NCBI GenBank assembly: GCA_905250025.1
Contig: CAJNOJ010000078.1
Location: forward strand, 341,231 to 405,230
Reading direction: 5' to 3'
DNA: 64,000 nucleotides
Origin: Adineta ricciae
Lineage: Eukaryota > Rotifera > Eurotatoria > Adinetida > Adinetidae
Shown here: piece by piece, positions 1-57,470 of the stretch
Layout: each line of letters begins with the position of its first letter
Position numbering within the stretch: the stretch's first letter is position 1
Position numbers and translations under genes: made by a program
Notes under the pieces: generated by a model
What the model saw: the letters and a program-made list of their open reading frames with translations, nothing else
What the model was told of the DNA's origin: nothing
Databases searched by the model: none

Positions 1-733
1 TACGCTACCGCCATTGCCATCCGATGGTTTGTGATAGATGAAGACTTCCTTTTGAAAAGATCATCATGATTATTCTCTATTGTAGTAGCGATAAATCGTT
101 TTAGTGTTGAATCTGTTGATACTAACAATGGTCAGTATGGAAATGACAAGAAAGGACGTGTTAGTTTTGTTAAAATTCCTCAATACTCAATCAACACAAT
201 CAATGAATTACCTGAAAAGAATGATTAATGAAGAATATGAAAGGTGCTCATGATTCTGTTTCGAAAACAAAACAAATCATCGATGATATACGTCCATTTC
301 TTTTTAAAAGATTTCCTCTCTTTTTTTTCTCGATTCTGTTTTAAAAAAAATATATGTTTCTATTTTCTTTATATTTGTATATATATACAAGTGTTTGCGT
401 GTGTGTATTAGATAATAAGTCCTTTAAAGAAAATAAACAAATTTAGTGAAAGTCTCACCTTTTTTTCTTCGATCTAATTCACGTGGAAAGAAATCGTTTG
501 AAAAGTATTTGTAAAACCTTGACAAATATTATCGAATTTTTTGTCAGTTTTATTAACATCGAACGTTTTGCACATCTACGGCTTAGATTTCATCGGATGC
601 TTGATCATCCGAATGGATCTCTGAAGAAGTTCACTTTAGCCAATCATGTTAAAATGAAACCTTGTCATTATTAGTGGAAATCGAATTCAAGGGAAGAAAA
701 TGAAACCCAATATGTATACGTATATTTTTTTAG
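1..733. other. 5' flank of NDUFAF5, no supported gene
   Basis: I find no convincing coding exon here. An open stretch at 483-674 (+) resembles no family I know and has no good partner exon. The DNA is rich in T and A tracts. A tract of seven T ends in AG at 732-733, directly before the NDUFAF5 start codon. It looks like a 3' splice acceptor, so an untranslated exon or a trans-spliced leader may lie upstream. Confidence 0.6.
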
Positions 734-2256
734 ATGAGGTTTTCTTTGACCAATGTTGTACAAACAACTCAACGAAATCTAAACAGTTTTCGTCGGAACT
801 TTTCGATCGGTAGAAAAACATGTCAACGGCAAGAAGCAATTCCGAACGTTTTCGATCGACAAACGAAATTCAAACAACGTGAACGCACTTGTCTTGATCC
901 TGAGCATCAAGTCTATTCATATGTACATGAACGTGTTGCGCAAAGCCTTGTCGATCGAATATTTGATATAAAACGGTAGAATGAACTGTCAATATTTGAT
1001 CTATGTTCACATTTGATTGTTCGTAGAACATTTCATTCCGCACTTGATCTTGGCTGTGGACGTGGCCTGACCGCGAGTGAATTGACCAAAGATGTTATTA
1101 AACGCTTGACAATGATCGATAATTCGGCACGTATGCTTGATCAGATCCGCCCACCTGTCGAAGAAAACGGACACGATGGAATGGAGATTGTGAAACGGCA
1201 GTTCGACGACGAACAATTCAGTGGAGATGAAAATTCGTATGATTTAGTTTATAGTTGTTTGAATCTTCATTGGATTAATGATCTTCCTGGTGTTTTTCGT
1301 CGAGTGTTACATATGTTAAAGAAGGACGCACCATTCGTTGGTAAAAAAATCGAATTTCTTTGAAAGATTTAGAAAGTCAATCTTTTCAAGGTGCCATGTA
1401 TGCTTCCGATACTTTGTATGAACTTCGTGTTGCATTACAATTAGCAGAAACTGAACGTGAAGGAGTAAGAAAATGAAATTAATCTTATTTTATTCTTTTT
1501 TTGTTCATTCAAAGGGTTTCTCGCCTCATGTTTCACCATTTGTTGAACCACCTGATATCGGCAGTCTTCTTCAACGTACCGGTTACAACATCGTCACACT
1601 AGTGCGTGAATCGAGTGATGTTTTTCTTCGTATGATTATGAAGAACGAGCCTATTCTAGTAGGATCTGGATGAAATTCATATTGATTATCCTTCAATGTT
1701 CGAATTAATGTTTGATCTCAAAGGTCATATCAATATTGATGAATTTTAATTGAATTTTCATTTGTTATTTGCCTTAACTATTTTTTTAGGCATGGGTGAA
1801 AATAATTGTAGTTGGAATCGGCGTCTCACGCTGAAACGCGAAACTCTTCTAGCCGCTCAAGCCATCTATCGAAGTAAGCTTATCTCAGAATTTACGATAC
1901 CGATCATATACACATAATCGCTCGTTTATAGTTGATATGCTTTTAAGATCTCACCATAAATTCTCATATATACATAAAGATAACTAGCTTGTTTTTTTGT
2001 TTTATGTAGACATGTATGGTAACCAAGATGGATCAATCCCGGCTACATATCGTATACTTTATTTTATTGGTTGGAAGCCAGATCCTAGTCAAGTGAATTA
2101 TTTTATTTGCTTTTGACAATCATAAAATCGCGAAGAAGATTTTATATATGCATGCACTTTTTTCTTCTATTTTAGAAAAGTCCGGCGAAACGTGGCTCAG
2201 CGAATGTCTCTCTCAAGGATATTGATAAAGTTTTATCGGTGACAAAATCAAACTGA
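734..2256 (+). CDS. NDUFAF5: NDUFAF5-like mitochondrial complex I assembly methyltransferase/hydroxylase
   Basis: This resembles the complex I assembly factor NDUFAF5 (C20orf7), a class I SAM-fold protein of the mitochondrial matrix that modifies NDUFS7 early in assembly. My model has eight exons: 734-975, 1027-1340, 1373-1464, 1515-1601, 1663-1723, 1790-1873, 2010-2092 and 2176-2256, giving 347 codons, close to the human length. The start gives an Arg/Ser-rich, acid-free N terminus suited to mitochondrial import. SAM motif I reads ALDLGCGRG just after exon 2 begins. The family signatures [13 protein letters not shown] and GRT/RGY-type [17 protein letters not shown] follow, then MFDLKGMGE and a C-terminal [11 protein letters not shown]. 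The second intron is only 32 nt by this model, unusually short. The start ATG directly follows a polypyrimidine-AG. Identity is confident; the exact intron 2 borders are less so. Confidence 0.9.
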
Positions 2257-4571: not shown

Positions 4572-4616
4572 GTATATGAAATGATGAAGTATAATTTCAA
4601 CTTCATCATTATATAC
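4572..4616. repeat. Imperfect inverted repeat (hairpin)
   Basis: The left arm at 4572-4590 and right arm at 4600-4616 pair over 17 base pairs, with a 2-nt bulge (GA, 4578-4579) and a 9-nt loop. The inner 11 pairs are perfect. The right-arm core ACTTCATCAT recurs at about 4664-4673. The stem is shorter than a usual animal microRNA precursor, so no RNA function is claimed. Confidence 0.6.
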
Positions 4617-5157: not shown

Positions 5158-5427
5158 AGCCGAATAAACCGTACTGAACGCTGCCGCCTCATGTCTGGTC
5201 TCGTATTGCGACCATTGATGTATGTATATATGTATGAATATAGACGTCTATACTCTAATTGAAATGATACGTACGTATGTGTGTATGTCTATATAGATTT
5301 TATATGCATACTTCATATACATATAATCGGTTTGACAGTTTCTATTCTAGATGTTACCACCTGTATTCGATTGATAAATCGTAGTGATTTTTTCTGACAA
5401 AAAAAGTATTGCTAAAGAACTCTCATC

Positions 5428-8400: not shown

Positions 8401-10738
8401 TCCGTCAATGCGACAATGTTTCGTTCGAGTACGCTCAGTTATTAATATATCAATTGTTCAATTCTATTTCGTGCTTTGCTTTTAGCCCTGGCCAAACTAT
8501 CGTCAACTTGGATTTACCATTGTTCCCACTCCCAATGGAACCGGTGGTGGATACCAAGTTCAACAACTTCGATTGGATTCACCAGCTGCCCATACTAAAA
8601 TACGCAATGGAGATCATCTGATTCAAGTCAACAACATCAACGTTGAAACGACAGATCATCAACATGTTCGTCAACTGGTCGATGAATCCTATGTTCGAGA
8701 TGGTGAAGTTTGCTTACTTGTTATCGATGATCCTGGTTATCAATGGTATAAACGTAATCATTTTCGAATTGACCCGTTATCCCAACGTGCTAACGTGTCT
8801 CGGTAAGAAAAACTTCTTTTTTTTTTCAAGTAATGGTCCTATTTGGATTGATTTCAGTCATGTAACTCCCGAACATCAAGCCGTATACACATCCACAGAT
8901 TCAAGTGTCGCGTCACCACCGACACGTTTCACGCCGGAGCCCATGTCGGATCAAAAAGAAATTCTTTTCCCACCAACACCATACCAACCGCCAACAACAA
9001 CAAGTCGACCGCCATCAACTGGACCTACTGCAATTCGTCCTTCCCCTTACACAAGTAATTGTGGCGTCATAAACTTTTTGTAGAGAAAAATCAATTCATA
9101 ATCATTTGCTTTCTTTCCTTCAGATGGCTACGTATCACCAGTGCGCGATCCATACCATCGATCAACAGTTGCGCCAAGTGTTACTTCATCGTTGAATCGT
9201 CCACGTATACCTTTATCACGAGCAGCTGTTGATGTTGTTGATGGCAAATCAATGTTACGTTTCTGTCGTTTAAATACCGAACCCGGTCAAACGTTTGGTT
9301 TTGAATTATCACAAGTAGATAACAAACACGTCATCCGCAATGTTGCGCCAGAATCACCAGCAGGTAAAGTCAAAGTGCTCACTTTGCATCTCAATCAGAA
9401 ACACATACATTTTATATGATATTTAGCTCGAGCTGGCCTGCACAATGAAGATCGTTTGATCGAAGTGAATGATGAGAACGTCACTCATAGAACACATCGA
9501 GGTATGATCATCCGAATTATTCTTACTTCCGTTTCACATTGGTTCGTTTTCATTTAGATGTCGCCGCTTTAATAAAAAATGCTAGTAATAATGGTCTTGT
9601 ACGGTTGCTTATATCACCAAGTAACATCAAACCATTGACTAAACCACCGTCGCGTGCGTCTGCCAAAACGAAATCATTGCCATCATTGAATGACGAGCGT
9701 ATGTACTACGATGGAAATAATGCTGATCAGTACACATCATCGTGGTCACCATATGATGGTTCATTTGCTACGCAACCACAACCATCCACAATGGTTAAAT
9801 ATATGTCCACACCGCGTCTTGATAATGTTGGTCTAACATCAGCAAGCTATCCAGATCGACCATACAGTGCACATGGTTTTGATACATATCAACGGCAACA
9901 AAATCGATCCGCGCTCATTACTAGTCAACCATATTTACCAACAGATCCATGGCCTCGTAAGATGTTCTTAGGTTTACTTTCGTAATCATTCTACGCGACG
10001 TTTTAGGCAAATGTGTTCTTGTTCGTGATCCAAGTTTCCATGGATGTGGTTTTCGAATGATTGAGAAAGATAATTACGATACACCAATTGTCGTTGAAGT
10101 CCGTCAGAATAGTCCAGCTAAACGAAGGTAAAACTTTTCTTTCGAAAAGTATCAAATTCTCATGAGAAAAAAAAACATTTCGTTTTTCCTTCTAGTGGTT
10201 TAACTGAAGGTGATCAAATTATTTATATTGAAACTCGTAATGTTCAAGCTATTCGATCGTTCGATGAAATGACACTTCTAATTCAACGAACATTCGAAGA
10301 AACAGGACAAGTTACACTTGTCACACTGACAGCTCCAGCATATCAAGTTCTCAAACGTAAAGGTGGTTACTTACAACCGGATCCATTCGATTATCAATTG
10401 CCATTTGTACGAGAATTAGCACCGCGTTTATGTCGAATTGTTCTGTACAATCATGAACAAGATTTTGGATTTACTCTACAACGCGGAAATCCTATACATA
10501 TCAAAGACGTTCATCCAGGTTCACCAGCATATGAGTTCGGTCTACGAGCCAATGATAAAATTCTTGAGATCAATAGTCGTGATACTACATATTTATCATC
10601 CGATCAAATTATCGAAATGATTGAAGCAAGTAAACGACGTCGCCAATTAGAAATCTTAGTTATTGACCCGGCTGGTTACGAATTTTCATTGAAACATGCC
10701 ATACCATTGAATTCGTTATTACCATTTGTTCAATCAGG
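5428..10738 (+). CDS. Nine-PDZ scaffold protein (NHERF/PDZK1-like), 3' end cut
   Basis: This is a multi-PDZ adaptor. PDZ domains bind C-terminal tails of membrane proteins, and tandem arrays such as NHERF/PDZK1 organise transporters at the cortex. Exons are 5428-6214, 6474-6767, 7127-7390, 7449-8428, 8486-8802, 8858-9054, 9124-9363, 9427-9501, 9558-9956, 10007-10127 and 10196-10738, about 1405 codons. Nine domains can be counted from their carboxylate-binding loops: GLGFNL, TFGFEV, TFGIEL, GVGFNF, GYGFRV, QLGFTI, TFGFEL, GCGFRM and DFGFTL. Each is followed by an SPA/AG-L-x-x-x-D motif and usually closes with a V-D/T-x-x-x-Y-like tail. Linkers are Pro/Ser/Thr-rich. The frame runs straight to the undetermined base at 10739. 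Codons after it (to a stop at 10776) are antisense to a lipase exon, so the true C terminus is missing. I assign no specific orthologue. Confidence 0.88.
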
Positions 10739-10739
10739 N
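10739..10739. other. Single undetermined base, probable scaffold join
   Basis: This is the only N in the window. The PDZ gene on the plus strand reaches it from the left and the hormone-sensitive lipase gene on the minus strand reaches it from the right. Both are incomplete at exactly this base. That is the signature of two contigs joined with a placeholder, rather than a simple ambiguous call. Confidence 0.8.
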
Positions 10740-12199
10740 CTGGTCCAATTTGAAAATACTTCGAAACAGTCACACTAGGTGCAATATAGCGTGAACCCAT
10801 TTTAATATAATCATGATCAACAAGGTTCCAAAACGATTTACAGAATAAGTAATCACAGTCCCGAAATATTGCGGCGCACTGAAATTTAGGTTAATGAATG
10901 AATTTCAATTAACTACTGTTCGTGAATTCAAACCTTTTTCGCTCGTTGTTCAGGAAATAGTATATACTTTGGTGCAGTGGCAAGACGAGCAGCTGCAAAA
11001 GGAATTGATCGATTGTATGTTTCATGATAAGTAGCTAAACCAGCGAGCAGAAAAGTAAGCATTGTTTGCATTGATTGTGCAAACTTAAGTAAGAAGAGAA
11101 TTGTTGAGAAAAATAGACGGCTGTGACCGGATCTCATCCTACCTGAAATCCACATGTTCTACCAAAAAAATATTCAGAATCAAAAGCAACAATTTTAAAA
11201 TATTCCAATTCGACATCTAGTGGTACTTCATTCGCGTCGATCTAAACGAGGAAAAAGTAGAACACTATTGAGGTAAATTTGACCTCTTACACATAGAACT
11301 TTCTTGCAGGAATAATCAACCATTTTTGCCGAAAACGAAAGAAGATGTTGCATGCCAATGAGAACTTTCGTCCAGGACTCCAAATCTTGAAATAACCGTG
11401 ATGAGTACATCAGATTAAACAAAAGGCCAACACGTTTCGTATCAACTTGTCGGAGAATATCTAGTGCACGTAAACATGCTTGACCATGTGCAACAGCTAA
11501 GGTTCGATAACCGTTGGCTCGAATCTAAAAGGCAACAAGTAAATAGAGAGATATTTACCTTGGTTTTTCTCAGAGTTTTACTTCGGTACTATAGTCGAAA
11601 TGATGAAAATTGTCTCGTAAGTATTGTATTAATGGTACGGATAGTTCAACTGAATGTAAAATTTGAATTAGAAGACGTTCAAATCGTCGGCAGACATCGG
11701 TTTTTTGTTGAGCAAAATAATTACAATTAATTTCTGCTAATTCGCGTAGTTGATTGTAGGTTAATTCGAAATTAAAATCTAAATCGACTGTTTCCGGTGC
11801 CGAGTCTATATTAGGAGCGCATGTTGTCGGAGATTTCAGATTATAATTTAATCCAGATGGAGTCGTTGCTGAACTACGCATAACGTGAGAAGTATTTGCT
11901 AGAAATGGACTTGAAGTTGATAGGGTTGGAGCAGATTTTGGCGACGTTGAACGGTTACGTGTTGGTAATAAGCGTTTGGTAAAAGGACTGAAAAATGATG
12001 ATGATGTGGAAGATTTATTATTCGTTTCATTTAAATCGGATGAGGCTGTAGACTGAGATTGTCTTGAAAAGGAAGACATAAGACGTGTTGCAGCAGCAAT
12101 TGGTCCGATGGTCAAACGATCAGTGAAAGAACTTGATCGGCGTTCTTTTGTGCCTATTTGTTCATTATTGACTGCTAATAACTCTTCATTAGTAGACAT
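10740..12199 (-). CDS. LIPE: Hormone-sensitive lipase, N-terminal part only
   Basis: The translation matches the HSL N-terminal domain. It has FDYSTE, ANGYRTLAVAHG, FGRTCGFQ, a FAQSMQTMLTF segment equivalent to the human QFAPAIRPFLQT region, and then FWNLVDHDYIKMGSRY approaching the hydrolase domain. Exons in gene order are 12199-11582, 11524-11291, 11241-11143, 11083-10934 and 10878-10740, 413 codons. A Ser/Thr-rich stretch of about 100 residues precedes the domain. HSL hydrolyses diacylglycerol and other acyl esters at lipid droplets. The HGGG and GDSAG catalytic motifs would lie further left but are absent, because the sequence changes to another gene at 10739. The start ATG is one base after a TTTAG acceptor, so a 5' untranslated exon (donor near 12353) or a trans-spliced leader is likely. 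Confidence 0.85.
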
Positions 12200-13480
12200 A
12201 CTAAACAAAAAAAGATTTCGATATCGATTCCATTCATAGTAGAACACAGAATAATCGAAGCAAAATAAGCGAGTTAAGAAGAACGCAAACAGAAGTACTC
12301 TCGCAGTATATATTATACATTCAAATGCACGAAATAAGACTATAGTCACTTACTTATAACGAATGGAGACAGGAAATATTCTAAATGTAATATCGAATAA
12401 CATACAAAACAAGTGACTCAAATATTGAAACTCGTGAATCATCAAGTCTGAAAATAAGACTCGTTTTTTCCCATCCTTCTTCTTTTCATGTACTGATTCA
12501 AAATGATTAGCGTGATAATCAACTCAGATGTTTAACAGTTGATCAGCAGATACGCTTACTTACCAAGTTGGAAATGGAACTACTATGGTTGTCATTTGGT
12601 ACAGTTATTATTAATCATGTAATAACGCGAATGTTTGGTTAGTTGTCAATGAAAAGAAACAAATGATAATTTTGACGTGTAAATGTCAAAGTCGAAGTCA
12701 ACGTAGGAAGATATGATATTTGTACGTTGTTTATTACGGGTTTTTTCTTCAATCAATATTTGTGAATGTCCTCTCGAAATCTATAATAGAAGGAAAAAAA
12801 CTAGTCTAGAAAAAAAAATGACGTCATTGTCGGATGTTCGTATCTTTATTGGTCAATAAAACGTGTTGGCGTGACAGACGCATAGTTAGTTTTTGTGTAT
12901 TCATTTGTCGATGTGCAGCAGAATACATTGATTTCTATTTGATTACTCGTTTCACTGTTCTACGCACATTACTTATTAATACGACGTAATTATTCGAGAT
13001 AGAGAAGAAGTGTCAAACAATCTGATCTTTTTGTAATCACAGTCATACACATAACGATCATGAAATGGAAATGAGATAGTCAGTAGAACAGTAAAAACAA
13101 CAGAGAGAGAGTGATCTGTATCTTTACTGGTGAACTCGTATCCATTGAAATGAACTTTTCGAACGTATAGATCGACAATGGGTTTGGAAAATATTTTTGA
13201 TAAAATCTATCGAAGTAACTATTAACAATTCATTGTAAACATATTGGGAACCTATTAGAATTTTGACAATAGATGTCCTTAGACGTGGTCTACGACCCCG
13301 ATGATCCAAAGATGTTCAGCGAAGTAAAAAACATATGATATGTAATACCTCGTTTTTCATAAATGTGTTTGTTATTTGAAATCAACAACAAGAACAACAA
13401 AACAGTACAGATAACAGGCAAAAAAAGCTGCCGACACTAAATTGTTGGACATGTAAAATTCCTAATAATAATATATATTA
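12200..13480. other. Intergenic, HSL upstream / fibrillarin downstream
   Basis: I see no coding exon. The part near 12200-12355 could be a 5' untranslated intron of the lipase, with an acceptor next to its ATG and a GTAAGT-type donor near 12353. The rest holds the fibrillarin 3' flank. An open frame at 13124-13309 (-) has no recognisable features. Confidence 0.55.
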
Positions 13481-15687: not shown

Positions 15688-16035
15688 CTAATGCACGAAA
15701 CCGTAAATCAATACAACGATCACATTGAGAGTTTTAGCGCATTTATGACCTTCATTGAGAATACGGTCTGATAGTTTAGTAGTATCTTTAAGTAATAAAA
15801 GACGTCTATAAATAACGAAAGCTTCAAGAGAAAGTTCATCGATTCAAATACATTCAACATGCTTTTATAAGCTTTACCATAAGAAGCATGCGCCTAGTAA
15901 TTCTAATGATTCAAGTTTCTTTTGAATCTCTCCCAAAGTCGAAATATTTAATATAAAACCAACAATCTCTTGATAATTTTGCTTGTCGTTTGAAATAGTG
16001 TATTTATACCATAGTACAAACATTTCAACTTGTTT
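15688..16035 (-). pseudogene. Broken helical-repeat (TPR-like) coding relic
   Basis: On the minus strand, coding-like sequence starts after an acceptor (TATAG, 16036-16040). It reads through a helical, Leu/Lys/Glu-rich segment including ILNISTLGEIQKKLESLELL. At about 15875 it hits TGG-TAA. The sense then seems to continue one base out of phase (GKAYKSMLNVFES). It returns to the original frame near 15838 with LSLEAFVIYRRLLLLKD, GHKCAKTLNV and a stop at 15688. No GT-AG pair joins the two good segments in matching phase. The amphipathic pattern suggests TPR-like helices, but I do not recognise the family. It may be a pseudogene, a fragment with assembly indels, or a real gene whose other exons I cannot place. 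Confidence 0.4.
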
Positions 16036-16084
16036 CTATACAATTCACTGTTTACTATGAATGTCGAGTCCACAGGAAGAATCT

Positions 16085-16880
16085 CTAAAAACACCATGTT
16101 GTCTGTTCTCTGATTTGGTGTTCCAAATGGTAATGTTTGACAATATCAGATGAATTCATTTTCAGCGACAACGAAGAAAACCATTGATTAATAACATCGT
16201 CAACCGTTTTCTCATTGATATTGTCGTGAACAGGAGAGGAAAATGAATAGAGTAAAATCTCGTCATCAACATCAGCGAGTTTCACATATAAACGAAAATT
16301 CTTCAATGTTGTAGCATTCGTTAATGTCTCTGATGCATAATAATAAACAATTGGATAACCAAGTAGATAGCCAAATGTTGTGGTGTGATTCATTGGTCGG
16401 ATTAATTTTGTCCATTCTTCGTTTGTTTCATCGTCGAAATCAATCTGTTGGTTTTGTTGATGATCAATCCATAAGAGATGATTACGAATCTAGTGAACAA
16501 ACGTAAGATGATCTGAATCAATAGGACAAGCGAACTACCTCATTTAGTACAGTATGACATTCTGTGATAGTTAACGTGTTTAAATCAATGATCAGAGCGG
16601 AGTTCGATACATCGATTAGTTTTGGTAAATGTGTACTATTGAGAATAATCAGATCGTTTATTGAATATTTTAATAAAATTGATCGAAATGGCAAATATTT
16701 CGATAGATCGTTCAGTAAACTTCTCATATTTTCTATTGAAAATGGAAACAAATCGAACAGATAAGCTGATTTCAAATTTGTGTTCAAGCATAACAATTGT
16801 GCGAACAATTCTCGAGTATATCGATGATATTTTCGATGAATATGTTGAAAAAAAATGTTTTGTACATCAGCAAATTTCAT
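16085..16880 (-). CDS. C1orf74/UPF0739-like protein (tentative)
   Basis: Two exons, 16880-16539 and 16489-16085, give a 248-residue protein with no signal peptide or clear membrane segment. The second half has a distinctive FGYLLGYPIVYYYASE motif and the first half has an N-terminal helical segment and a LIIDLNTLTITECH core. The length and the LGYP-V-Y-type motif recall the uncharacterised C1orf74 family (DUF4504), whose function is not known to me; this match is from memory and tentative. The start codon directly abuts a long pyrimidine tract ending in CAG. It lies only 57 nt after the TAF11 stop on the same strand, which suggests that the two are parts of one polycistron resolved by trans-splicing. 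The gene itself is well supported by frame and splice phase. Confidence 0.55.
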
Positions 16881-16937
16881 CTGAAGGAAAGAACAGAAAA
16901 CGCGAGAAAGAAAAAACACAGAATTGATTTGTCAAAA
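16881..16937 (-). promoter_or_regulatory. Intercistronic spacer with 3' splice acceptor at ATG
   Basis: The 57 nt between the TAF11 stop and the next start codon contain a pyrimidine-rich tract ending in CAG immediately before the ATG. No donor of the downstream gene is available in this spacer. A trans-spliced leader or an intron starting inside TAF11 are the two ways to use it. Confidence 0.55.
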
Positions 16938-17492
16938 TTAATGATATCTCGACTTCTTTTTCGATTTCCACGTTTTTCTTTGTGGATAACGACTAGTATT
17001 ATTAATACGTCTGTATGCTTCACGTAAATGTTTAGGTTCCAAAGGCGTTGTCTTATTTTCATTCTCTCGACGTTGAACTTCGAGTGCTTCTTCAACTAAT
17101 TCACCAATGAAAACTTTAGCTATGCCTGCCATAGCTATGACAACGTTCGACGATGGTATTGTGCCGGTGATTGAGTGCATTAAACGTTTGATTGAAACTT
17201 TGGAAAACGCCGAACGACGATACATTTCATATCGATCTAATTGTTCATCACTGAAGTTGGATACGAGCACTTGAAGTTTGATGTTAGCTTCTTCGTCGAC
17301 CGGTTTTTGATAAGTACGCGCGACTTTGGGAACTGTTGCTTCGGCTGGTTTTGATTCGGCTTTGACTGGACTAGTTGTTTCCATATCTGAAGGAGAATTT
17401 GCTTCATCTGCTTGTTCAATCTCGTCATCTTCAGTTGGAGGTTGGAAAAAACTGGAATTATGATCATTGTTATCATTAAGAAAATGCTCCAT
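16938..17492 (-). CDS. TAF11: TFIID subunit TAF11
   Basis: This single-exon gene of 184 codons encodes the TFIID histone-fold subunit TAF11, which pairs with TAF13 and contacts TFIIA and TBP at promoters. The first 75 residues are acidic and Pro/Ser-rich. From about residue 78 the conserved domain follows: [52 protein letters not shown], and the tail [12 protein letters not shown]. The C terminus is Lys/Arg-rich. It sits 107 nt downstream of the PNPO stop and 57 nt upstream of the C1orf74-like gene. An acceptor-like TTTTAG lies 18 nt before its ATG. Confidence 0.95.
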
Positions 17493-17599
17493 TTCTTTTT
17501 ATTACCAATCTAAAATCAATTAAGTAAAAATCTATCTGTATTAGTTCAATGGGAAAGACATGTGTTTAAAATCAATTATCAATATAGAAGAAAAATATA

Positions 17600-18655
17600 T
17601 CACGGTGACAATCGTTCGTAGACCCAGCCATCGGTTCCTTGATGGGTAACAGTTGGATCTATTGGAATGGTTTCCTTGGCATTAGATGTAAGACGACGAA
17701 ATTGGATACGATCAGATAATCGATTGCTTTGACCTTGATAGAATTCAATAGTGTGTGGTATGACACGAAAACCACCCCTGAAAATAAAGTAGTCAAGCGA
17801 CGAAAGAAATGATAGATTTTTACCATCGTTCCGGTTTCTCAATTGGTAAACCGCTGTCGATATATTTCTGTCGTTGATCAAGTAAAAACTATTGGTACAA
17901 AAAAAAACCACTGGTTCTTTTTAGACAGTTTAACAAACGAGAGAAATTACCTGTCGGTTCGGTATAGGTTGACTTTGTTTACTGATTGCTCCACTAATTT
18001 GTGAATCACGAGGACGTGATTGAAAATATTCTTTAGATTCAGCATCCGATAATTTCTCCACTCGACCATCGATTCGAATCTACCAGAAATCTTTTAAGTA
18101 CGCATTTCAAAGATCCGGTGAACTTACCGATCGTGACATCGATGACCAATAGAAACACATCGATGCTACTGGATTGCTTTCCTAGATAGTTATGTCATAG
18201 TTTTATCGATGTAAAATCTTTATCAACTTACCAGTTCTTGTCCTTTTCGACTATCATAATTTGTGAAAAACTTGAAGCCGTTCTCGTCGAAATCTTTCAT
18301 CAACAAGAATCGACTGGACGGCACTCCATCTCTAATCAAGAAACATAACAGTTCAACAAACAAATTAAAACTGATCCTACTTTGTCGCTGTTGACAAACA
18401 AAACGCATTTGGTTCGTCAAGATATTCATATGCTTCTTCGAACCATTTTTTAAATTGACTGATTGGTTCTTTCGCTACTAGATGTTCGATACCGAAGAAT
18501 TCGTGTGGTTGTTTATATGGCTTGCGAAGAGCTAAGCAAAGTACAAAATAAGGTTACCAAACTCTTTAGAATAGTTGTTTACCAGCAATATTAATATTCG
18601 AGTGAATGTGAGCCTGTGGTTCCATAAACCTGCAGAGTAAACGAATAAAACGCAT
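17600..18655 (-). CDS. PNPO: Pyridoxamine/pyridoxine 5'-phosphate oxidase
   Basis: PNPO is the FMN enzyme that oxidises pyridoxine or pyridoxamine phosphate to pyridoxal phosphate. Exons in gene order are 18655-18583, 18531-18381, 18331-18232, 18181-18128, 18079-17951, 17888-17824 and 17777-17600, up to 249 codons, near the human 261. Recognisable segments are [65 protein letters not shown], the FMN/PLP-contacting [24 protein letters not shown], and the usual closing ERLSP. All key motifs are present. Two in-frame starts exist, 18655 and 18625. An acceptor (CTGCAG) lies between them, so the shorter form may be the real one. It heads a minus-strand series with TAF11 and the C1orf74-like gene. 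Confidence 0.95.
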
Positions 18656-19233
18656 GAGAACTAGAACAAGGTGTTCGAATTCATACTGTTAAGAATGGCG
18701 GCAGAGATGAGCAGCAAAATCGGGTAACTGGTTAAATGATAATTACCTCAGATGTGATTCAGCGCACCGGTCATGAAAAAAAAGTATATTTTGTGTCAGA
18801 TGAGTGCACGGCGTCCAACGAATGACTGAGAAATGTCGAATAGATGTCGTTCGCTTCTCGAAATCAATAAAAATCCTATTGATGCAAATTATTTTTTGTC
18901 TTTATCAAATATAATAGAAAATTTTACGCAGATAATTAGAAGAAAGAATTCTTTTTGATTGGTTTTTGCACTTTTCTGTTAACAGATGATTCAATGTCAT
19001 ACGACAATCGACGACTGAGACGAATCTGAGACGATATTTTCCTCTTTCCTTATTTGATCATCAATCTTGTCATATTTTACAATTCACGTGCTCGATAGAG
19101 GAAAAAAAGAAAACATATTTCTTCGCTCTCCACTCTCCATAACAATGCAGAACATCTACTTAAACGTGTTTGTATACATTTTTGCAAACGAAACGCAGTA
19201 CCATATGTAGATTTTCTTATTTAAGGCCATAAG
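18656..19233. other. Divergent intergenic region PNPO / TP53INP
   Basis: This region lies between two divergent starts and probably holds both promoters. No coding exon was recognised. Confidence 0.5.
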
Positions 19234-20023: not shown

Positions 20024-20536
20024 AAATCTTTGTTTACCTTCCAGAATCTTACAGTAACAATCGCCTATTTTTTTTTCTTGCACTACGATTATTCCATTCG
20101 ATGTACATAAACTATCTTCCTTTTCGATACCAGTGTATTTCTGTAGCAACGAATTGCATTTTCTTGTCTCTTGATACTGTACTGTCTAACTTCCGGATGT
20201 TTTTAGCATTCTTACACGATCTGAAAGCCCTTGAACTGATATCTGCATGCTATTTTTCTACGGTTTGTTGTACATGAAAAAACGTTTCTTTTCTTCTCGT
20301 TCCTTTTACTGCAGTTTTGTGTAAAAGTATGTGCACCATATTTTGAAAAGAGAACAAAAATGAATGGTAAATATAAAGAAGAGAGGCCGAATGAGAAAAA
20401 AAGTAAAGAACTATGGTGTCGTATTTTTTTGCAGTACTTCAAAGAAAACTAATGGCTAAATTTTTAGATTGTTAAGAAGAAAACCTTGTTGCTGCTGTTG
20501 ATGATGCATTTAAATCAATGCTCAATTAGCTATTAG
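20024..20536. other. Intergenic, TP53INP 3' flank to SLC35B3 start
   Basis: No gene was recognised. The last two bases, AG at 20535-20536, directly precede the next start codon. Confidence 0.5.
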
Positions 20537-22164
20537 ATGGAAATTAGTAAAATACATCAACATCAACATCAAGGTGATGAGAATTGCTATTGAATGAGAT
20601 TCAGATAAACTAATTGGTTTTTAATTATATCTAGATATTGAACCAACTACATCCGCCATAGAAGTAACGGTTGATACAGATTCGGATATAGAACCTATGG
20701 AATATCGTAAACATGAACGAACAAATCATCAAACTTCTTCTTATCTAAATTTTGCGCAATTTTCATCACCGTCAACATCACTCGTATCACCAAGATTTAT
20801 TGGACTATGCCTTCTAGTGTTCCTCTATTATATCGGTTACGCTTATTTACAAGTTTGTCTTTACACTTGAAAACAATATTCACGATAATATTCTCACATC
20901 CTTCACAGGAACTCATGTTTACATTGAAAGGTTTTGATAATACTGCTTGGTTTCTCACATGCTATCAATTTTTTGTCTACGGTATTCTTTCATTTGTTCA
21001 CCTGGGCTTTACTGGTCTCGATCAACGACGGTATTATACTCTATTAATTCTCTCCTGTCATTCGTTTTCTTCGTTATCTAGAGCAAGCTACCGTTCGTAT
21101 ATTCTCTTAGCTCTTCTGACTGTCACGACTATGGGTTTATCTAACTATGCAGTTGTTTATTTAAACTATCCGTAAGATGAATGCATGCACAACAAAATCA
21201 TTGAGAATCCGTTCGCAAATAGGACACAGGTGATGTTTAAATGCTGTAAACTGATACCAGTACTTATTGGTGGTATCCTCATACAAAGTACGAAGTTAAT
21301 TGATGAGAGATAAAATGATAGAGATGAATTTCATTAGGGAAAACATTCAATCGTTATGATGTTGCTGCTGCTTTTTGTATGTCAACTGGATTGATATTTT
21401 TCACTTTGGCTGATTCGAAAGTTCAACCAAGATTTAATTTATATGGTAAAACACATAGAGAATCAATTTTTCTTCTATGAATTATTCACAATGCACTTTA
21501 GGAGTTGTAATTATCAGTTTGGCATTGATCGCCGATGCAGCAATAGGAAATTATCAAGAGAAAATTATGAAAGAACATCATGTATCCAATGTTGAAATTG
21601 TGTTTTATAGTTTCATATTCGGTTTTGTATTTGTTCTCTGTGGGCTATTGCTAACGAACAATTTCTTTCCAAGTTTAGAATTTTGGAATAAGGTTTGAAT
21701 CGTTTGTTTTGTATAAAGAAATATCTATGCAGATTTTTCAATGATTTTCAGCATCCAGGACCAACGTATGGTTATGGTTTGATATTTTCTATTGTGGGTT
21801 ATTTAGGCATTGATATTGTCTTGACATTGATTAAAGAATATGGTGCGCTAATCTGTGTTACTGTGACAACATGTCGAAAAGCAATAACGATTATATTATC
21901 GTTCACCTTGTTTTCCAAACCATTTGTATTCGAGTATGTGAAAATAAAAATGAAGAGGTTTGTCATCTTTTAATTTCTTCGCGTGTGTTTTGTAGCTACT
22001 TGTGGTCTGGTTTGATTGTTATTGTTGGTATTTATCTTAATGTTTACAGTCGAAATCAAACAGTATTTAATGCTAAAATAGTATCGTTAACTCAGAATCT
22101 ATTCAATTTACGTTGGTGGCCACGATTATTTTCGACGCCTACCATCCGAACACTGCCTGTGTGA
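20537..22164 (+). CDS. SLC35B3: PAPS transporter, SLC35B3-like, copy 1
   Basis: SLC35B2/B3 proteins import the sulfate donor PAPS into the Golgi. Exons are 20537-20573, 20635-20852, 20909-21030, 21082-21171, 21223-21287, 21338-21445, 21502-21692, 21752-21933 and 21996-22164, 393 codons, the family size. Motifs are YLQELMFTLKGF, TVTTMGLSNYAVVYLNYPTQ, MFKCCKLIPVLIGG, FFTLADSK, ALIADAAIGNYQEKIMK, GALICVTVTTCRKAITIILS and LWSGLIVIVGIYLNVYS. About ten membrane segments are expected. The hydrophilic N terminus of about 80 residues has an Asp/Glu-rich part. A paralogue with matching motifs follows 152 nt downstream on the same strand. The ATG abuts an AG (GCTATTAG), consistent with trans-splicing. 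Confidence 0.9.
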
Positions 22165-22316
22165 TTGACAAATCTCAAGTTGTTTTTTTTCTTTTCTGCA
22201 ACACTGTTATAGACAATAATAAAATTCTCAGATTGTCGGACAATTATAGACAATAATGTAAACTTTTCAGAATTCGATTTCTAGATAGAAATGAATTAGA
22301 TTGAGAATGATCTTCT

Positions 22317-26800: not shown

Positions 26801-27090
26801 TGCGAGATCAAAAGCAAATAGCTTTGAAACGTGAACTTCACAGGCATCTCCGTTCATTCATTTCACATATTATAAGCGAGGTACGGCAGACGCGATATGA
26901 CTTTGTAGTTCAAAGCCAGTACTATGAATGTTGAAATATTGAATTAAGCGACGCATGAGACGTCCAAGAGAATGTCAGGAATAAGGTACGATGTAAAAAA
27001 AAAAGGTCGCATATCTTCTGCTAGACATATATATATATATATTTTTACTTTTTGATAAATGGTCTCTTTTGTATCTGTTTCAGAAGACAA
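23826..27090. other. 3.3 kb region without a recognised gene
   Basis: Short open frames occur on both strands (for example 24221-24478 and 26271-26552 on plus, 26438-26776 on minus). None resembles a known family or joins others by splice sites. A G-rich stretch lies at 24912-24932. The stretch near 27020-27083 is an AT run followed by a pyrimidine tract and CAG just ahead of the GPCR start. No transposon terminal repeats were recognised by eye. Confidence 0.45.
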
Positions 27091-28641: not shown

Positions 28642-29265
28642 ATCAACACTTGTAAATTTGTTTATTTCTTCTATAACACAATAAATATCATTTTCAATTT
28701 CCATACAATTCACTAAGAAAAAAGAAAAACTTCGAAGAAGAAAATTCACTTTTATTCTAATTAGCATCTGTCATTACTATTTAACAAGGATATAAATAAT
28801 GAATGTTCTTTAAGTCGATATGTGGATTCGAGACTGCTATTGTTTGTTGCTTCAAGCAAAGCGATGCTCGAGAATTTCGCTTCTATTATCTGTATCTTCT
28901 AGTCATTAGAAAGCCTCTCAAGTATAATAATCATAGTAATAAATTGATTGCGTTTCTATGTCGGAAAAAATCGAGAAGTGATGGTCGACAAATAGAGATT
29001 AAGACGATACGTTCTGCATTGGATCTTTCCAATGTTAACTAGATTCCAAAATCATACAAACGTGGAAAATCTTTTTAGATTGTTGATTCTTTTTCCTTCG
29101 TCGTCGTCTCTCCATTCGTTTGTCTATCGAAGAAGAGAGACAAAAAATCATTCCATTCCAATCAGTATGAAGCTAAATAAAAACGACAATCTTGAATTAC
29201 TTCTCCTCTTAGTTTCACATTTCATTCCTACGAATATTCTAGATTGACTTTACGAGAAGATTCTT
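28642..29265. other. Intergenic, no gene seen
   Basis: AATAAA signals for the receptor gene occur just after its stop (about 28680). Two plus-strand open frames (28803-29042 and 29032-29247) show no family resemblance. Confidence 0.5.
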
Positions 29266-31232: not shown

Positions 31233-31250
31233 ACAGATTCAATTCATTTG

Positions 31251-35187: not shown

Positions 35188-35610
35188 TCTAATCTTCTCA
35201 TATCTGTACAATGTATCTAGTCATTTTGTTTTTGTTGATTGGTGATGGATGAAAGGAATGAATGACAAAAGAAACGCGTTTCTTTCAATATATTTATATC
35301 CAATTGTGAATGTCAATTTATTTTCTTTTTGTTTGTTTGTTTGTTTGGGAATGACAAAATCGATCTCATTTATCTATTTTTGTTTTCTTCGAACGTCTAG
35401 TCTTGTGTGTTGGGACATGAAGACAGTGAAACTTATAGTCATTCGTCAATGTTAATTCCATTCATTTACTTTATTTTATTTAACGTTAACTCTTTGTTTT
35501 TTCTTCTCTTCTTGTTGTTCTTGTTCGTATATATTTTGACAATAAACACTGATGATGAGAAAAGTAATAAAGATAATCTTTGGGTTTTAGATCGAATTTA
35601 AAAACGAAAC
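35188..35610. other. Spacer RUNDC1 to GPN2
   Basis: This T-rich 423-nt spacer between two plus-strand genes ends in GGGTTTTAG (35589-35590) 20 nt before the GPN2 ATG. No coding exon was seen. Confidence 0.5.
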
Positions 35611-36634
35611 ATGTCAGCTGTCTTTGGACAAATCATTATTGGTCCACCGGGCAGTGGTAAAACAGCAACATTTGTTTCCTATATACATCAATCATTTATC
35701 TCGTTCTTCAGGTAAAACAACATACTCCGCGGCTATACAAGATTATTTCAATAAATGCACAGCTGGCATCAGTAGTCGACATGTTTATATTGTTAATTTA
35801 GATGCTGCGAACGTCGGCATGCCATACGAATGTGCAATAGATTTAGTTGACTTAATCACTGTCGATGATGTCTGTGATAATCTCAATTTGGGTCCAAATG
35901 GTTCCTTGATGTACTGTATTGAACATATTGAAAAGAATATCGATTGGTTGCTTAAACGTCTTGAATCTTTAATTGCTCAACATCCATCAACATTACCTCC
36001 ACCGTATATTCTATTCGATTGTCCTGGTCAGATTGAACTCTATACACATCATGGTTCGATTCATCATATAATTGAACAATTATCAAAAAAGTTAGATCTG
36101 CGACTTTGTTGTGTGAATTTGATCGATTCATATTACTGTTCCGATTCGTCGAATTTCATCAGTGCTCTGTTAACTTCATTATCGATGATGTTACATTTAG
36201 AGTTACCTCATGTGAATATTCTATCAAAGATCGATCTCGTTGAACGGTATGGCTCATTAGAGCACAACATTGATTTCTATACAGAAGTATTAGATTTATC
36301 CTATTTAATGGGAAATAAGAAGTCTACTGCAGATAAATTTCGGCCTAAATTAGCAAAGAAATACCGCAAGTTAAATGCGGCATTGGGTGAAGTTATTCAA
36401 GATTACAGTTTAGTTTCATATATTCCATTGGATGTTCAAGATCGATTGAGTATCGAGAAGGTTAACAATACTATTGATAAAGCAAATGGATTTATATTTG
36501 GACATTTGAAAAATGATGATTTATCACAACGAACAAATTTAATGTCCAATGCGTATGGTGTGGAACAATTTGAATATGCTAAAACAGCGAAAATCAGAGA
36601 AAATTATACAACTGTTGATGATGAAGATAGTTGA
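35611..36634 (+). CDS. GPN2: GPN-loop GTPase 2
   Basis: GPN GTPases are dimeric enzymes needed for assembly and nuclear import of RNA polymerases. Exons 35611-35656 and 35712-36634 give 322 codons, the family size. The P-loop GPPGSGKTT is split by the intron between Gly and Lys codons. The GPN insertion reads LNLGPNGSLMYC, switch II is FDCPGQIELYTHHG, and the base-specificity motif is LSKIDLVERYG. A C-terminal acidic tail (TTVDDEDS) follows GYDxxD-less DVQDRLSIEKV and NAYGVEQFEYAKTA. The 55-nt intron begins with nearly the same sequence that starts exon 2 (see finding). It lies 423 nt after RUNDC1 and 116 nt before the next same-strand gene. Confidence 0.93.
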
Positions 36635-36750
36635 AATATTGAGTCTATTTTTTGTACACTTTTTTCTCTAAAAGTTCAAATTTCGCATTCTGGATCGGTG
36701 ATTTCTCAGTGTATCCCAGACGTGACTTTCATCAATTCATTTCGTTTTAG
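36635..36750 (+). promoter_or_regulatory. Intercistronic spacer with acceptor at ATG
   Basis: A 116-nt spacer separates the GPN2 stop from the next ATG. It ends in TTCGTTTTAG directly before the start codon, an acceptor that no in-gene donor uses. Confidence 0.5.
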
Positions 36751-40400: not shown

Positions 40401-40541
40401 TGTAATTCGAAAACTTCGATTATGAGTAAACGCCAGCTTTTTCGTAATCGGAGCAAATTAATATGTCATCTCTTTTCTTTTCTTTCGTAGATTTCATATC
40501 ATTGAAAACACCTAATCTCAACTATTTATTGAACGTTCAAT
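37417..40541. other. 3.1 kb region without a recognised gene
   Basis: Scattered short open frames (for example 37525-37713, 38518-38832, 39260-39454) are low complexity and lie over one another on both strands. AT- and purine-rich tracts are common. An acceptor-like TTTCGTAG at about 40483-40490 precedes the sHSP start by about 50 nt. One TTCCGGAA (40086-40093) resembles half of a heat-shock element, but no full three-unit element was seen. Confidence 0.5.
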
Positions 40542-41324
40542 ATGCAAACATTAGCGTCTCCATTAACTGAAACAACTCGTATCGAAGTTAATGTTGCCGA
40601 ATTCGCGCGTGGTGAAATCGCTGTTAAACTTCGACGTGATAACACATTACTTGTACATGCTCTACATCTTGATCAATTCGCTGTAGATAATTTTTTTCGT
40701 AAAGAATTAGTTAAAACATTTCCTTTACCACCCGGTGCCGATGTTGATAAAATACGTTCAATCATACGGAACAATGGAGTATTGACCATTGACATACCTA
40801 TGTTAAGAGATAATGATGCAATACGACGTTCACATGAAGAATTACTACGAGCAATGGATCAGCCGAGGCCCCAACGAAAAAATGATTATGTACGTTCAGT
40901 TTCGCAAGCGAACGTGACGGATTTTGCTCAACAATCGTTAAGACAAGAACCGTCAACAGTGCACAAAAGTACGGGAAGTCTGGCTAACATGGATCACCGA
41001 CAACATTCAGCATCATTTAATATCGCGGACTTTCTACAATCGAAATTCCATCCAACATTTACACCGAATCGTAAAAAGTTAACCTTAAAAGTCGACACAC
41101 GTGGATATCAACCCGAAGAACTGACTGTTCGCCTATTGGATGATAATTTATTAGTACAAGGAAAGAAAGCCTCGTCGTCATCCAAAATATCGGACAGTAA
41201 ACAATTTAGTCAAAGTATTCGTTTACCTGATGGAATTGATAAATGCAATGTTACGTCTCAAGTTATGGATGACGGAATGCTCTTTATTGAAATACCATTG
41301 ATTAATTCATCCATGTACCGATGA
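40542..41324 (+). CDS. Small heat-shock protein with two alpha-crystallin domains
   Basis: This intronless gene of 260 codons resembles the small heat-shock protein chaperones, which hold unfolding proteins in ATP-independent oligomers. Two alpha-crystallin-like domains are seen. The first, residues about 10-95, has IEVNVAEFARGEIAVKL, LLVHALH, KTFPLPPGADVDKI and NNGVLTIDIPM. The second, about 185-258, has LTLKVDTRGYQPEELTVRLL, NLLVQGKK, QSIRLPDGID and DDGMLFIEIPL. Between them lies a Gln/Ser/Arg-rich linker with no domain. Most animal sHSPs have a single ACD, though dual-ACD forms exist in some flatworms. No C-terminal IxI/V motif follows the second ACD. AATAAA signals follow at about 41359 and 41391. 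A role in stress or desiccation tolerance is a reasonable inference for the presumed organism. Confidence 0.85.
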   Translation: MQTLASPLTETTRIEVNVAEFARGEIAVKLRRDNTLLVHALHLDQFAVDNFFRKELVKTFPLPPGADVDKIRSIIRNNGVLTIDIPMLRDNDAIRRSHEELLRAMDQPRPQRKNDYVRSVSQANVTDFAQQSLRQEPSTVHKSTGSLANMDHRQHSASFNIADFLQSKFHPTFTPNRKKLTLKVDTRGYQPEELTVRLLDDNLLVQGKKASSSSKISDSKQFSQSIRLPDGIDKCNVTSQVMDDGMLFIEIPLINSSMYR

Positions 41325-52868: not shown

Positions 52869-53125
52869 TTTTTGTCAAAAAAAAAACGTTTGCTTGTCCG
52901 ACAATCGATCAGAAGAAAAGTGTGTGCACCGTGAAAAAAAAAGTGCCATTATATTCCACTCTTTCTTTTCCTTCTGATTGACGTTGTTAAGATGCCTTCT
53001 TAGCTGCGTAACTATCGTTCGCGTGAGAGTGAAGGGCGCAGCATAGAAGAAAAATCTCTTTCGTTCTGTGTCGATTTTCTTCGTCAGACGTGTTCAATTA
53101 CGATAAATCATATATAAAAACTATC

Positions 53126-53870: not shown

Positions 53871-54331
53871 GATATCTGCAGTAAACAAAGACAATTTCGT
53901 TTGGCCTCATCGGAATTTTGACTGGGTCAGTTTTATTGCATGACATCAAGATCAATCGAAATGCTAATCATTATCGTTCTCTTTCGATTATGTAAATAGT
54001 AAAATACCTCAGGTATACTCGATTGATCTTCTCACCTTCCCATTGCTCATGTAGAACTTCGAGTTGCTGGAGGCATCACAGTAACAATTGATTACCACGC
54101 CTAATAGCATCGGATTCGAGTAACAGCCGCTGGTATTGATGATAAGGAAGTAGATTAGTGTTTTATTCTATTTAGAAGATGTCGTCCATATACGAAAGAA
54201 GTCTGCAGGAAGTTTCTAACCAATAACAGAAGTACCTGTTCTTGCACCATCAGTCGTCAATTACTGTTTTTGCGGTTGAAAAACATTGATAAATACGATC
54301 AACATTAGAATTTTAACATATTCAAACTAGA
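53871..54331. other. Divergent spacer KATNIP-N / PARP
   Basis: This 461-nt region between two divergent starts contains the coding-like minus-strand relic listed next. The PARP start is preceded by an acceptor-like CTAG at 54327-54330, one base before the ATG. Confidence 0.5.
54001..54150 (-). pseudogene. Coding-like fragment interrupted by TGA
   Basis: One minus-strand frame reads YHQYQRLLLESDAIRRGNQ, a TGA at 54078-54076, then CLQQLEVLHEQWEGEKINR and on to VYLRYF. The amphipathic, charged helical composition looks like real coiled-coil coding sequence on both sides of the stop. No splice pair neatly removes the TGA. I do not recognise the family; it may be a decayed exon, a mis-spliced piece of a neighbour, or chance. 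Confidence 0.3.
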
Positions 54332-57175
54332 ATGGCATCGAATAGTTCTACTATCACAGTTTCCGGTCATAATGCTCAATGGGAATGGGAGGGAGATAAG
54401 AGTATTTGGCAACAGTATCCAATTAACGTACAGCAAAGTATTTCTCAAGCTTTTGATGCGGGTAAAAAAGAAGTAAGTTTTTCTTCAGAAAGACTATTCT
54501 ACGACTCGTGCTTTTTGTGTTTGCAAGGTTGACGTGGATATAACGGATGAGATAAGTATGACAATTAAATTTATTGATATGATCCAAATGAACAAGAAAA
54601 CGAAGTTTATGCGTCGTATTCGTTTGTGCTTGGAAATGAAAGACGTCAATGGATATTCTGTTTATGAATGGCAAAATGAGAACAAAAGATGGGAAAGTTA
54701 TATTGCCGAAGTGATGATTAAGATAGCCGATGCAATCAACAATGATCAAACAACATTATCGGTTACGTGTCAAACCCGATCCTATGATATCGATCTGAAA
54801 AAATTGACTCAAACAAACACAAGTACCAATGTTGTTCGTAAAATCCGCTGTGTTAAATCAAGTTTGTTATTCGATACCTTTTTACTTTTTATCACAATAG
54901 ATTTTGTCTAATTTAGTGGCAAAACTACCACTGAATGCTACAACAAATACGGCATCTAATAAACGTTCACTAGAGAATGACGACGAACCAACAGAGAGCA
55001 CTACGAAAAAACGAGCCGTATCAAAATCAACCCAATCCGAAGCTAGTTCAAGTGAGCAGATTTTTCCTATTGATCATCTCCATAATTTCTACGTTCGATG
55101 TTTGTAGTACGTACAGTAACAACAGTTGCCGGTCAGGCACCAGTGGACGGCGCGTGTACTACCATGTTAGGCAAAGCTCATGTTTACAGTGAAAATAAAG
55201 ATATATTCGATTGTATGCTTAATCAAGTAAGACAAAAAAAACCATTTGAATATATCTGATCTAGTGATGATTACTTTTAATCTAGGCAAATGTTGGGAAT
55301 AATAACAATAAGTTTTATCTGATTCAACTTTTGGAAGAGAATAATAACAAAAAGTATTATGTTTGGATGCGTTGGTAAGGTCAGATTCATGCTACAGATA
55401 AGATATCTATTTTGATTAAATTAGGGGCCGAGTTGGTTATACTGGACAGACAAGTATGGAGACTTATAACGGCAATTTAGATGGTGCAAAACGATCATTT
55501 TGTTCAAAGTATGCTTACGAGGAAACATACCTATTCTGTTTTATCTGGACGTTTGAATAGATTTAGCGACAAGACAAAGAACGACTTTTATCACCGAGAT
55601 ACATTCACTAAATATCCAGGAAAATATGATTATGTTCAACTGGATTACAATCCATCGGTAAGTAGAAAATATAAGATGTTATGCCATTTTCGTAGAGATG
55701 TTGTGTTTAGACTTCGAAGAAAACCGAAGAAGATGAGGAAAATAAGAAGAAACGTACTGAAGCACTGGAAGAACTGAAAAGTCGACCTGTACCAGAATCG
55801 AAACTTGATAAACGTGTTCAGGATCTGATTGAATTAGTGTGCAATGTTCGTGCCATGGAAGAAGCATTACTTGAAATGAAATTCGACGCGAAAAAGAATC
55901 CACTCGGTAACAAATAACTCATTCACCATCTCCCAACACACACATTCATCTCTTTCAGGTAAACTCAGTTCCGCTCAGATTAAAGCTGGTTATGCAGCCT
56001 TAAAAGAAATCGAAACATTCATCAAAGCAGGCAATTTTGGCGCTCCATTCGTTGAAGCAAATAATACGTATTACACGCGAAGTATGTGTTCAATCAGTAG
56101 CAGATGATCGTTTCTTACCTGCGAGTTTATTTTAGTTCCTCATGAATTCGGTCGACATGCACCACCATTGATTCGAACAACTCAACAATTAAAACATGAG
56201 ATTGAACTGCTTGAAGCACTCGACGATATCGAAGTTGCATTCAGTGCTTTGAAAACCGATACGAACACTCGTTTGAACCCTGTTGATCAGCAATACGAAC
56301 AACTGAAATGTCACTTACAACCAATTGAGAAAACGGATGATATGTATAAACTCATTGATAAATATCTTCAGTCAACTCATGCAGCAACACATCAGCAATA
56401 TAAAATGCAGATCGAAGATATATTTACCGTGGAGAGAGAGGGCGAAAAAGAAGCATTCAACGATGTTGGGAATAAAATGCTACTTTGGTAAGTTCGTCTG
56501 ACAAGAGCGTATCTATATGCATTCGAATCTCTAGGCATGGCTCTCGTTTAACTAATTTTGCGGGTATCATGACTCAAGGTTTACGTATCGCACCACCTGA
56601 AGCCCCCGTGGTAAGTTTGAACAATTCATTGTTTGTAGTTAAATTAATTCGATGATGATCTCTTCTAGACCGGATACATGTTCGGCAAAGGCTTATATTT
56701 TGCTGATATGAGTAGTAAAAGTGCCAACTATTGTTATACAACACCTGGGAAGAATACTGGTCTCGTTCTTCTCTCTGAAGTAAGTGACTCCGGATTTACA
56801 TTGGTATTTTTCAAAATTTGATTTATCAGGTCGCACTTGGCAAATGGAATGAACTATTGCATGCAGATAATAATGCTAATAAACTACCGGCAGGTTTATC
56901 GAGTGTTAAAGCACTTGGATCAGTTGCACCTAATTCCAAAAATGAAATCAAACTGTAAGTTCTTTTCACTTACGAAAGATCATCGAATGAACCGATTCTT
57001 TTTTTTTCTTATGAACAATAGAGATGGAGATATAACAGTACCCATGGGTCCCGGTGAATCGGCCAAGGTGAATAATTCCAAAGGTTACACATTGAATTAT
57101 AATGAATACATTGTTTATGATACGAAACAAGTCCGGTTACGATATTTAATTCGTCTGAAATTTCTATACAATTAA
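54332..57175 (+). CDS. PARP with WWE-WWE-WGR-PRD-catalytic architecture
   Basis: This poly(ADP-ribose) polymerase closes at 713 codons. Exons are 54332-54472, 54528-54851, 54901-55051, 55108-55226, 55286-55374, 55425-55508, 55561-55657, 55711-55906, 55959-56081, 56136-56487, 56535-56610, 56669-56779, 56830-56954 and 57022-57175. Two WWE domains lead: [11 protein letters not shown] with [14 protein letters not shown], and [13 protein letters not shown] with [14 protein letters not shown] basic Ser/Thr linker ([18 protein letters not shown]) follows, then a WGR domain ([16 protein letters not shown]). The regulatory helical domain precedes the catalytic fold. The NAD-binding H is in [12 protein letters not shown] in [17 protein letters not shown], and catalytic E in YNEYIVYD, so the PAR-forming H-Y-E triad is complete. 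The WGR and catalytic parts are PARP2/3-like. The border of exons 2-3 is uncertain. An acceptor sits one base before the ATG. Confidence 0.9.
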
Positions 57176-57470
57176 AACTTTGTGATATCAGTGTTTGCTT
57201 TTCTATACAGTTTTGTAAATTCTATAGTTACGATTCCTTGTGCGTTTTGATGTTGTGAGTGTAAGTGTATGTTTTCTCTCAATAATAAAAACAAGTTAAA
57301 ATAAGTTTGAATCTCAGTAAATCAAAGAAACCGAACAGTAGCGAGCGCCATCTACATTCGATTGTTTCTTACTTAAAGGGTCTCTTGGCAATACCTTATT
57401 CGAATAACTATCAAATGGAGTCGATGGAAAGACGACTTCATTTTGTTTCAATAGTCGAATACTTCAACAG

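Follow-up and report, generated by a model that had tools for sequence, protein, structure and literature searches.

Spliced-leader (SL) trans-splicing was reportedly described in bdelloid rotifers by Pouchkina-Stantcheva and Tunnacliffe in 2005. Nematode SL1/SL2 operons are characterized by short intercistronic gaps in which an acceptor stands without a donor ahead of it. Two bdelloid species share one common 23-nt exon, carried by SL RNAs of ~100 nt and found on more than 50% of transcripts (PMC1925144), and the rotifer SL consensus, also of 23 nt, is given as GGCTTATTACAACTTACCAAGAG (PMC3795323, Table 1). As for operons, rotifers were entered as “ND” in 2008 (PMC2481426), a 2021 paper states that operons had not yet been reported in this group, and a 2025 article cites rotifers, along with nematodes and tunicates, in connection with trans-splicing and operonic transcription, with no rotifer operon data in the sections at hand (PMC12460157). 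The latter also describes chaetognaths, in which nearly half of the genes are trans-spliced and operons were called at gaps of less than 250 bp (PMC12460157). Among the entries listed by a literature search on rotifer operons, no title was recognised as that of a rotifer operon study. The present analysis concerns a 64-kb stretch of the genome of the bdelloid Adineta ricciae (contig CAJNOJ010000078.1, positions 341,231 to 405,230), hereafter the window, in which an earlier note had attributed the AG dinucleotides found at or just before many start codons to probable SL trans-splicing.

Genes for SL RNAs, an excess of acceptors near start codons, the lack of donors at intron distance and the retention of acceptors between gene copies together argue that SL trans-splicing very probably accounts for most, though not all, of these start-proximal AGs. 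Trans-splicing of this kind has been described in bdelloids before; less familiar is a candidate operon formed by PNPO, TAF11 and C1orf74.

An exact search of the genome (130.46 Mb in 1033 contigs) with the published rotifer leader gave no match because the first base differs; with up to three mismatches allowed, at least 47 matches were obtained, compared with at least 12 for the reversed pattern. No match was found to the Ciona leader followed by a donor, and a tunicate source was accordingly set aside. At least 41 copies in the genome read TGCTTATTACAACTTACCAAG, which matches the published leader at 22 of 23 positions; the mismatch is at the first base, a G in the published consensus and a T throughout the 41 one-mismatch copies listed. 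The difference could lie between species or come from a base derived from the cap in cDNA. Among the copies read in 15 excised SL loci, one is degenerate and 16 are intact, and in all 16 of the latter the leader continues across the junction AG/GTAA. The likeness to the bdelloid system covers 22 of 23 leader bases, the GAG 3′ end, the GT donor and acceptors lying just upstream of open reading frames; the SL RNA was published at ~100 nt, and the fold obtained here spans ~106 nt from the leader to the last hairpin. In this predicted fold, UUACC of the exon pairs with GGUAA of the donor (hairpin 1), and further hairpins follow. Hairpin 1 is invariant in all 12 aligned copies (12 of the 16) and hence does not covary; the later stems carry double-sided changes in 6 of 30 pairs among the same 12 copies. 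The fold of one copy reached a z of -4.13 against shuffles.

The SL RNA genes are mostly arranged head-to-head, with 34 of the 41 one-mismatch copies listed forming 17 pairs. The leader starts lie 129-132 bp apart in 14 pairs and 349-445 bp apart in three, and the pairs are located on contigs C6, C8, C43, C77, C79, C99, and C146. U2 small nuclear RNA (snRNA) genes adjoin SL RNA genes in two of the six loci scanned (Table 1).

Gene models were obtained with a small gene finder trained on the window and 200 kb of contig C1 (264 kb), which gave 87 genes and 453 introns with a median length of 55 nt, 84% of them spanning 44-70 nt. Acceptors were scored with a position weight matrix (PWM) built on these 453 in-gene introns of the same genome, from the intron side only; in-gene introns score 2.56 at the 10th percentile, 3.83 at the 25th and 5.08 at the median. 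The neutral finder fused neighbouring genes via start-proximal acceptors, and an SL-aware variant, in which an acceptor before ATG is rewarded, separates them. A short-intron decoding, in which 49 of 104 starts had an acceptor and six of these 49 a donor, was dropped because genes with longer introns were split.

Acceptors scoring at least 3.83 occur 0-59 nt upstream of 36 of 82 neutral model starts in the 264-kb sample, compared with 21.6% of 2308 intergenic ATGs (p 5.4e-6), and those scoring at least 5.08 at 19 of 82, compared with 7.9% of the control (p 1.7e-5). Shuffling of the upstream sequences (200 runs) gave a mean of 22.4 at the lower threshold (sd 3.5, maximum 34, against 36 observed) and of 9.9 at the higher one (sd 2.7, maximum 19). 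Farther out, at 60-290 nt, the rate of 3.83 acceptors is 22-28%, near the control. A good AG exactly at position 0 was found in none of the 82 starts because the finder swallows such acceptors, and the test is therefore conservative on that count. The net excess would correspond to roughly a third of starts. That the AGs are mere chance dinucleotides before ATG, devoid of meaning, is most unlikely as a general account, even though 7.45% of the 2308 intergenic ATGs have an AG directly before them; among 21 start rows (PNPO counted twice), five abut an AG against 1.56 expected (p 0.017, in a test chosen after the fact). The ten AGs to which the earlier note gave positions are all present on the expected strands, and for TAF11 and GPN2, which it named without coordinates, the nearest good acceptors are given in Table 1. 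Across its 12 named genes, the acceptors of nine reach the 25th percentile of in-gene introns and seven reach the median, which, together with the excess in the genome sample and the paralogue comparison, argues against chance. The three others, SLC35B3, PARP, and the AG abutting the ATG of MYCBPAP, fall below the 10th percentile, and a chance AG is the preferred reading for PARP and SLC35B3. Good acceptors also precede four genes beyond that list, namely the DOR-family gene, W12, W08, and the gene at 5428 (Table 1).

A cis acceptor needs a donor and most introns span 44-70 nt; donors scoring at least 2.86 were therefore counted in that distance range only. Such a donor is present at 4 of the 36 acceptor-bearing starts, compared with 77.0% of the 453 in-gene introns, and the background rate is 16.2% of 499 intergenic acceptors. 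These figures make it improbable that most AGs near starts belong to ordinary cis introns of 5′ untranslated regions (5′ UTRs), each preceded by a genomic first exon under its own promoter. Individual genes may have such introns. In PNPO, the AG may be the ordinary cis acceptor of a 57-nt intron, since a donor of 4.8 lies exactly that far upstream; a weak donor (2.9) would give the orphan gene at 36751 a 53-nt intron; and a donor of 4.3 sits 48 nt upstream at W08, where a cis intron is therefore possible. Several genes have donors 90-400 nt upstream, for instance HSL (6.1 at -154) and NDUFAF5, whose sole donor above 2.86 within 400 nt scores 3.2 at -229 and whose AG the finder paired with a very weak donor (1.5) into an 86-nt intron. 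The earlier statement that no donor of the same gene uses these AGs consequently gives way at PNPO, the orphan and NDUFAF5. Hidden cis starts were sought among the 23 genes with an in-frame ATG no more than 60 nt after the first acceptor. Of their first exons, 13 are clearly coding (score >10) and 10 weakly so; the latter could be hidden cases, and six of them have a donor at 44-70 nt. Even with all six counted as cis, 10 of 42 starts have a donor, still far below 77%. Moreover, the 57-nt gap between TAF11 and C1orf74 lacks a donor. At the DOR gene, the 400 nt of upstream window sequence hold no donor above 2.86, and the nearest one in the paralogue is as far off as -367, leaving the first 366 nt free of any.

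A four-copy genome pattern is typical of bdelloid rotifers and provides a natural comparison for acceptor conservation. Contig C51 carries a copy of parts of the window at 92-95% identity, and contigs C87 and C150 carry collinear copies, mostly at 66-79% identity in the matching pieces. The paralogue count covered nine genes, with copies ~70% identical, for which a window acceptor of at least 3.83 lies within 80 nt and the counterpart start was located; the 80-nt limit was fixed after the gene at 5428 (-77) had been seen, whose C980 counterpart is at -81. An acceptor is kept in eight of the nine, an outcome with a chance probability of 2.5e-4 (control rate within 80 nt, 0.279). Distances to ATG in window and paralogue are 1 and 1 nt for HSL (6.7 in C87), 8 and 8 for DOR (5.0), 5 and 12 for KATNIP (8.6), 7 and 29 for the GPCR (6.1), 51 and 24 for W12 (5.8), and 53 and 25 for W08 (5.8, with a further 4.3 at -11). 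For the gene at 5428, 77 nt compares with 81 nt in C980 (5.3, with a further 5.5 at -26) and 37 nt in C87 (7.7), and for the orphan 0 compares with 4 nt in both C150 (3.9) and C87 (2.6), the gene being counted as kept via C150, the one of two copies above threshold. Three genes have no such acceptor in the window: the paralogues of W09 and PARP have none either (none above 2.4 within 100 nt for PARP, the AG of which is probably not a splice site), and that of FBL has one of 5.2 at -58. Left out of the count were NDUFAF5 and W13 (whose counterparts were not looked for), SLC35B3 (whose first exon was not placed), and C1orf74, TAF11, PNPO, GPN2, and MYCBPAP (absent from the pieces retrieved). In C51, NDUFAF5 retains its abutting AG, and MYCBPAP has lost the AG at -16 and retained the abutting one. 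Overall, paralogue conservation favours functional acceptors, without separating cis from trans.

Several observations weigh against SL trans-splicing as so broad an explanation. The 19 starts observed at the 5.08 threshold were also reached by the best of the 200 shuffles. Because the finder turns some cis-type starts into 5′ exons and so conceals them, the donor test is biased toward trans-splicing; 5′-UTR introns longer than 70 nt are possible at HSL, W12, MYCBPAP, and the gene at 5428, which have upstream donors. For W10, the window acceptor (4.3 at -66) has no counterpart in the 100 nt before the paralogous start, and the agreement between copies (8/9, vs 1/3 among the negatives) is not significant (Fisher p 0.13; 8/8 vs 1/3, p 0.055, leaving out W10). 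As for the SL RNA itself, the most divergent copy folds just 1.5 standard deviations better than shuffles, and a canonical Sm site was not recognised by eye in copy A1, no dedicated test having been made. The proposal of the earlier note is supported from the genome side at most sites, by the SL genes, the donor-less acceptor excess and the eight of nine paralogues kept; it falls short at PARP, SLC35B3, and the AG abutting MYCBPAP, where the acceptors are poor, and perhaps at PNPO with its potential 57-nt cis intron.

PNPO, TAF11, and C1orf74 follow one another on the minus strand, with intergenic gaps of 107 nt (PNPO-TAF11) and 57 nt (TAF11-C1orf74). The first gap holds the acceptor of 5.7 at -17 and a weak one of 2.5 at -43, its single donor above 1.5 sitting downstream of the acceptor with none upstream; in the second, the acceptor of 7.3 is at 0, with no donor scoring above 1.5 anywhere in the 150 nt inspected. 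The gene order is kept in the similar C51 copy, where the 160-nt stretches around the TAF11 and C1orf74 starts are 90-91% identical. PNPO had no match outside C78 and C51, and none of the three genes turned up in the C87 pieces retrieved. Across the 264 kb, neighbours less than 300 nt apart comprise 11 tandem, 13 convergent and 0 divergent among 91 pairs with SL-aware models, and 5 tandem, 13 convergent and 0 divergent among 84 pairs with neutral models; genes needing separate promoters are therefore not seen that close. We lean slightly towards the view that bdelloid rotifers have true operons, rows such as PNPO-TAF11-C1orf74 being co-transcribed and cut apart by the rotifer leader. This row resembles nematode operons in its short gaps, each with an acceptor and no donor ahead; it differs in that one leader type is known here, a second, operon-specific leader not having been sought. 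Chaetognaths differ in having three leaders and support from RNA reads (PMC12460157), whereas the present case is built from genome sequence.

We infer both the joining of the leader at these AGs and the co-transcription of the gene row. Under SL trans-splicing, a pre-mRNA would be transcribed with an unpaired 3′ splice site (outron), and the spliceosome would join the 22-23 nt SL exon (...ACCAAGAG) from the GTAA donor of the SL RNA to the start-proximal AG. The resulting mRNA would start with the common leader, followed in most cases by less than 80 nt of native 5′ UTR. At PNPO-TAF11-C1orf74, the same step would resolve a polycistronic transcript into separate mRNAs. The leader end ...CTTACCAAGAG would be expected exactly at 733/734, 12201/12200, 16881/16880, and 17510/17509, and further leader junctions at 19225/19226, 27083/27084, 36750/36751, and 53876/53875.

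Table 1. Start-proximal AGs of the window, with PWM score and distance to ATG, the candidate operon and the U2 snRNA genes adjoining SL RNA genes (CDS, coding sequence; GPCR, G-protein-coupled receptor)
Feature	CDS or ATG	AG or span	Strand	Score, distance or family
NDUFAF5-like methyltransferase	CDS 734-2256	732..733	+	6.6, 0 nt from ATG
PDZ-like-repeat gene (named by eye, no scan)	ATG 5428	5349..5350	+	5.9, 77 nt before ATG
HSL_N gene	CDS 12199-10928	12201..12202	-	7.4, 1 nt before ATG
Candidate three-gene operon PNPO-TAF11-C1orf74		16085..18655	-	Pfam PNPOx_N, TAFII28, DUF4504
C1orf74-like (DUF4504)	CDS 16880-16085	16881..16882	-	7.3, abuts ATG
TAF11	CDS 17492-16938	17510..17511	-	5.7, 17 nt before ATG
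PNPO	CDS 18655-17600	18630..18631	-	4.5, 4 nt before inner ATG
DOR-family gene	ATG 19234	19224..19225	+	4.3, 8 nt before ATG
SLC35B3-like gene		20535..20536	+	2.3, abuts ATG of the earlier note; below 10th percentile
Rhodopsin-family GPCR	ATG 27091	27082..27083	+	6.3, 7 nt before ATG
Gene W08	ATG 29266	29211..29212	+	4.9, 53 nt before ATG
GPN-family GTPase (GPN2)	CDS 35611-36634	35589..35590	+	5.0, 20 nt before ATG
Orphan gene	ATG 36751	36749..36750	+	6.5, abuts ATG; 116 nt after GPN stop
Gene W12	ATG 40542	40489..40490	+	7.3, 51 nt before ATG
KATNIP-like gene	ATG 53870	53876..53877	-	5.6, 5 nt before ATG
PARP		54329..54330	+	2.4, 1 nt before ATG
MYCBPAP	ATG 57471	two AGs in 57453..57470	+	5.2 at -16 and 0.7 at 0
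U2 snRNA gene		L012:1535-1728	-	Rfam RF00004
U2 snRNA gene		L013:1035-1230	-	Rfam RF00004

Pfam supports the window genes for the methyltransferase (NDUFAF5-like), fibrillarin, HSL_N, TAF11, DUF4504, and PNPO, as well as those for DOR, the UAA transporter, 7tm_1, the GPN-type ATP_bind_1, and DUF4457 (KATNIP); the names PARP and MYCBPAP were taken from the earlier note, without a Pfam scan. SLC35B3-like genes form a tandem pair at 20247-23825, the start of the first being uncertain (20247 or 20537). Scans of the window with Rfam (gathering scores) and ARAGORN (bacterial code setting) gave no matches. Compared with the window, contig C51 has two extra stretches of ~43 kb (C51:221831-265042 and C51:295130-338207), located against window 10738 and 40734-40981 (match coordinates). 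C51:338021-338205 duplicates window 10728-10912, sequence that borders the first extra C51 stretch, and a ~281-bp segment of the window (15696-15976) is left unmatched where two C51 matches adjoin.

Predictors that ignore trans-splicing fuse neighbours of this kind or invent 5′ exons, as did the finder used here, and annotating SL acceptors would make it easier to set start codons correctly in bdelloid genomes. Should the gene row be an operon, SL trans-splicing would serve in rotifers as it does in nematodes and chaetognaths, with a bearing on whether this use evolved more than once.

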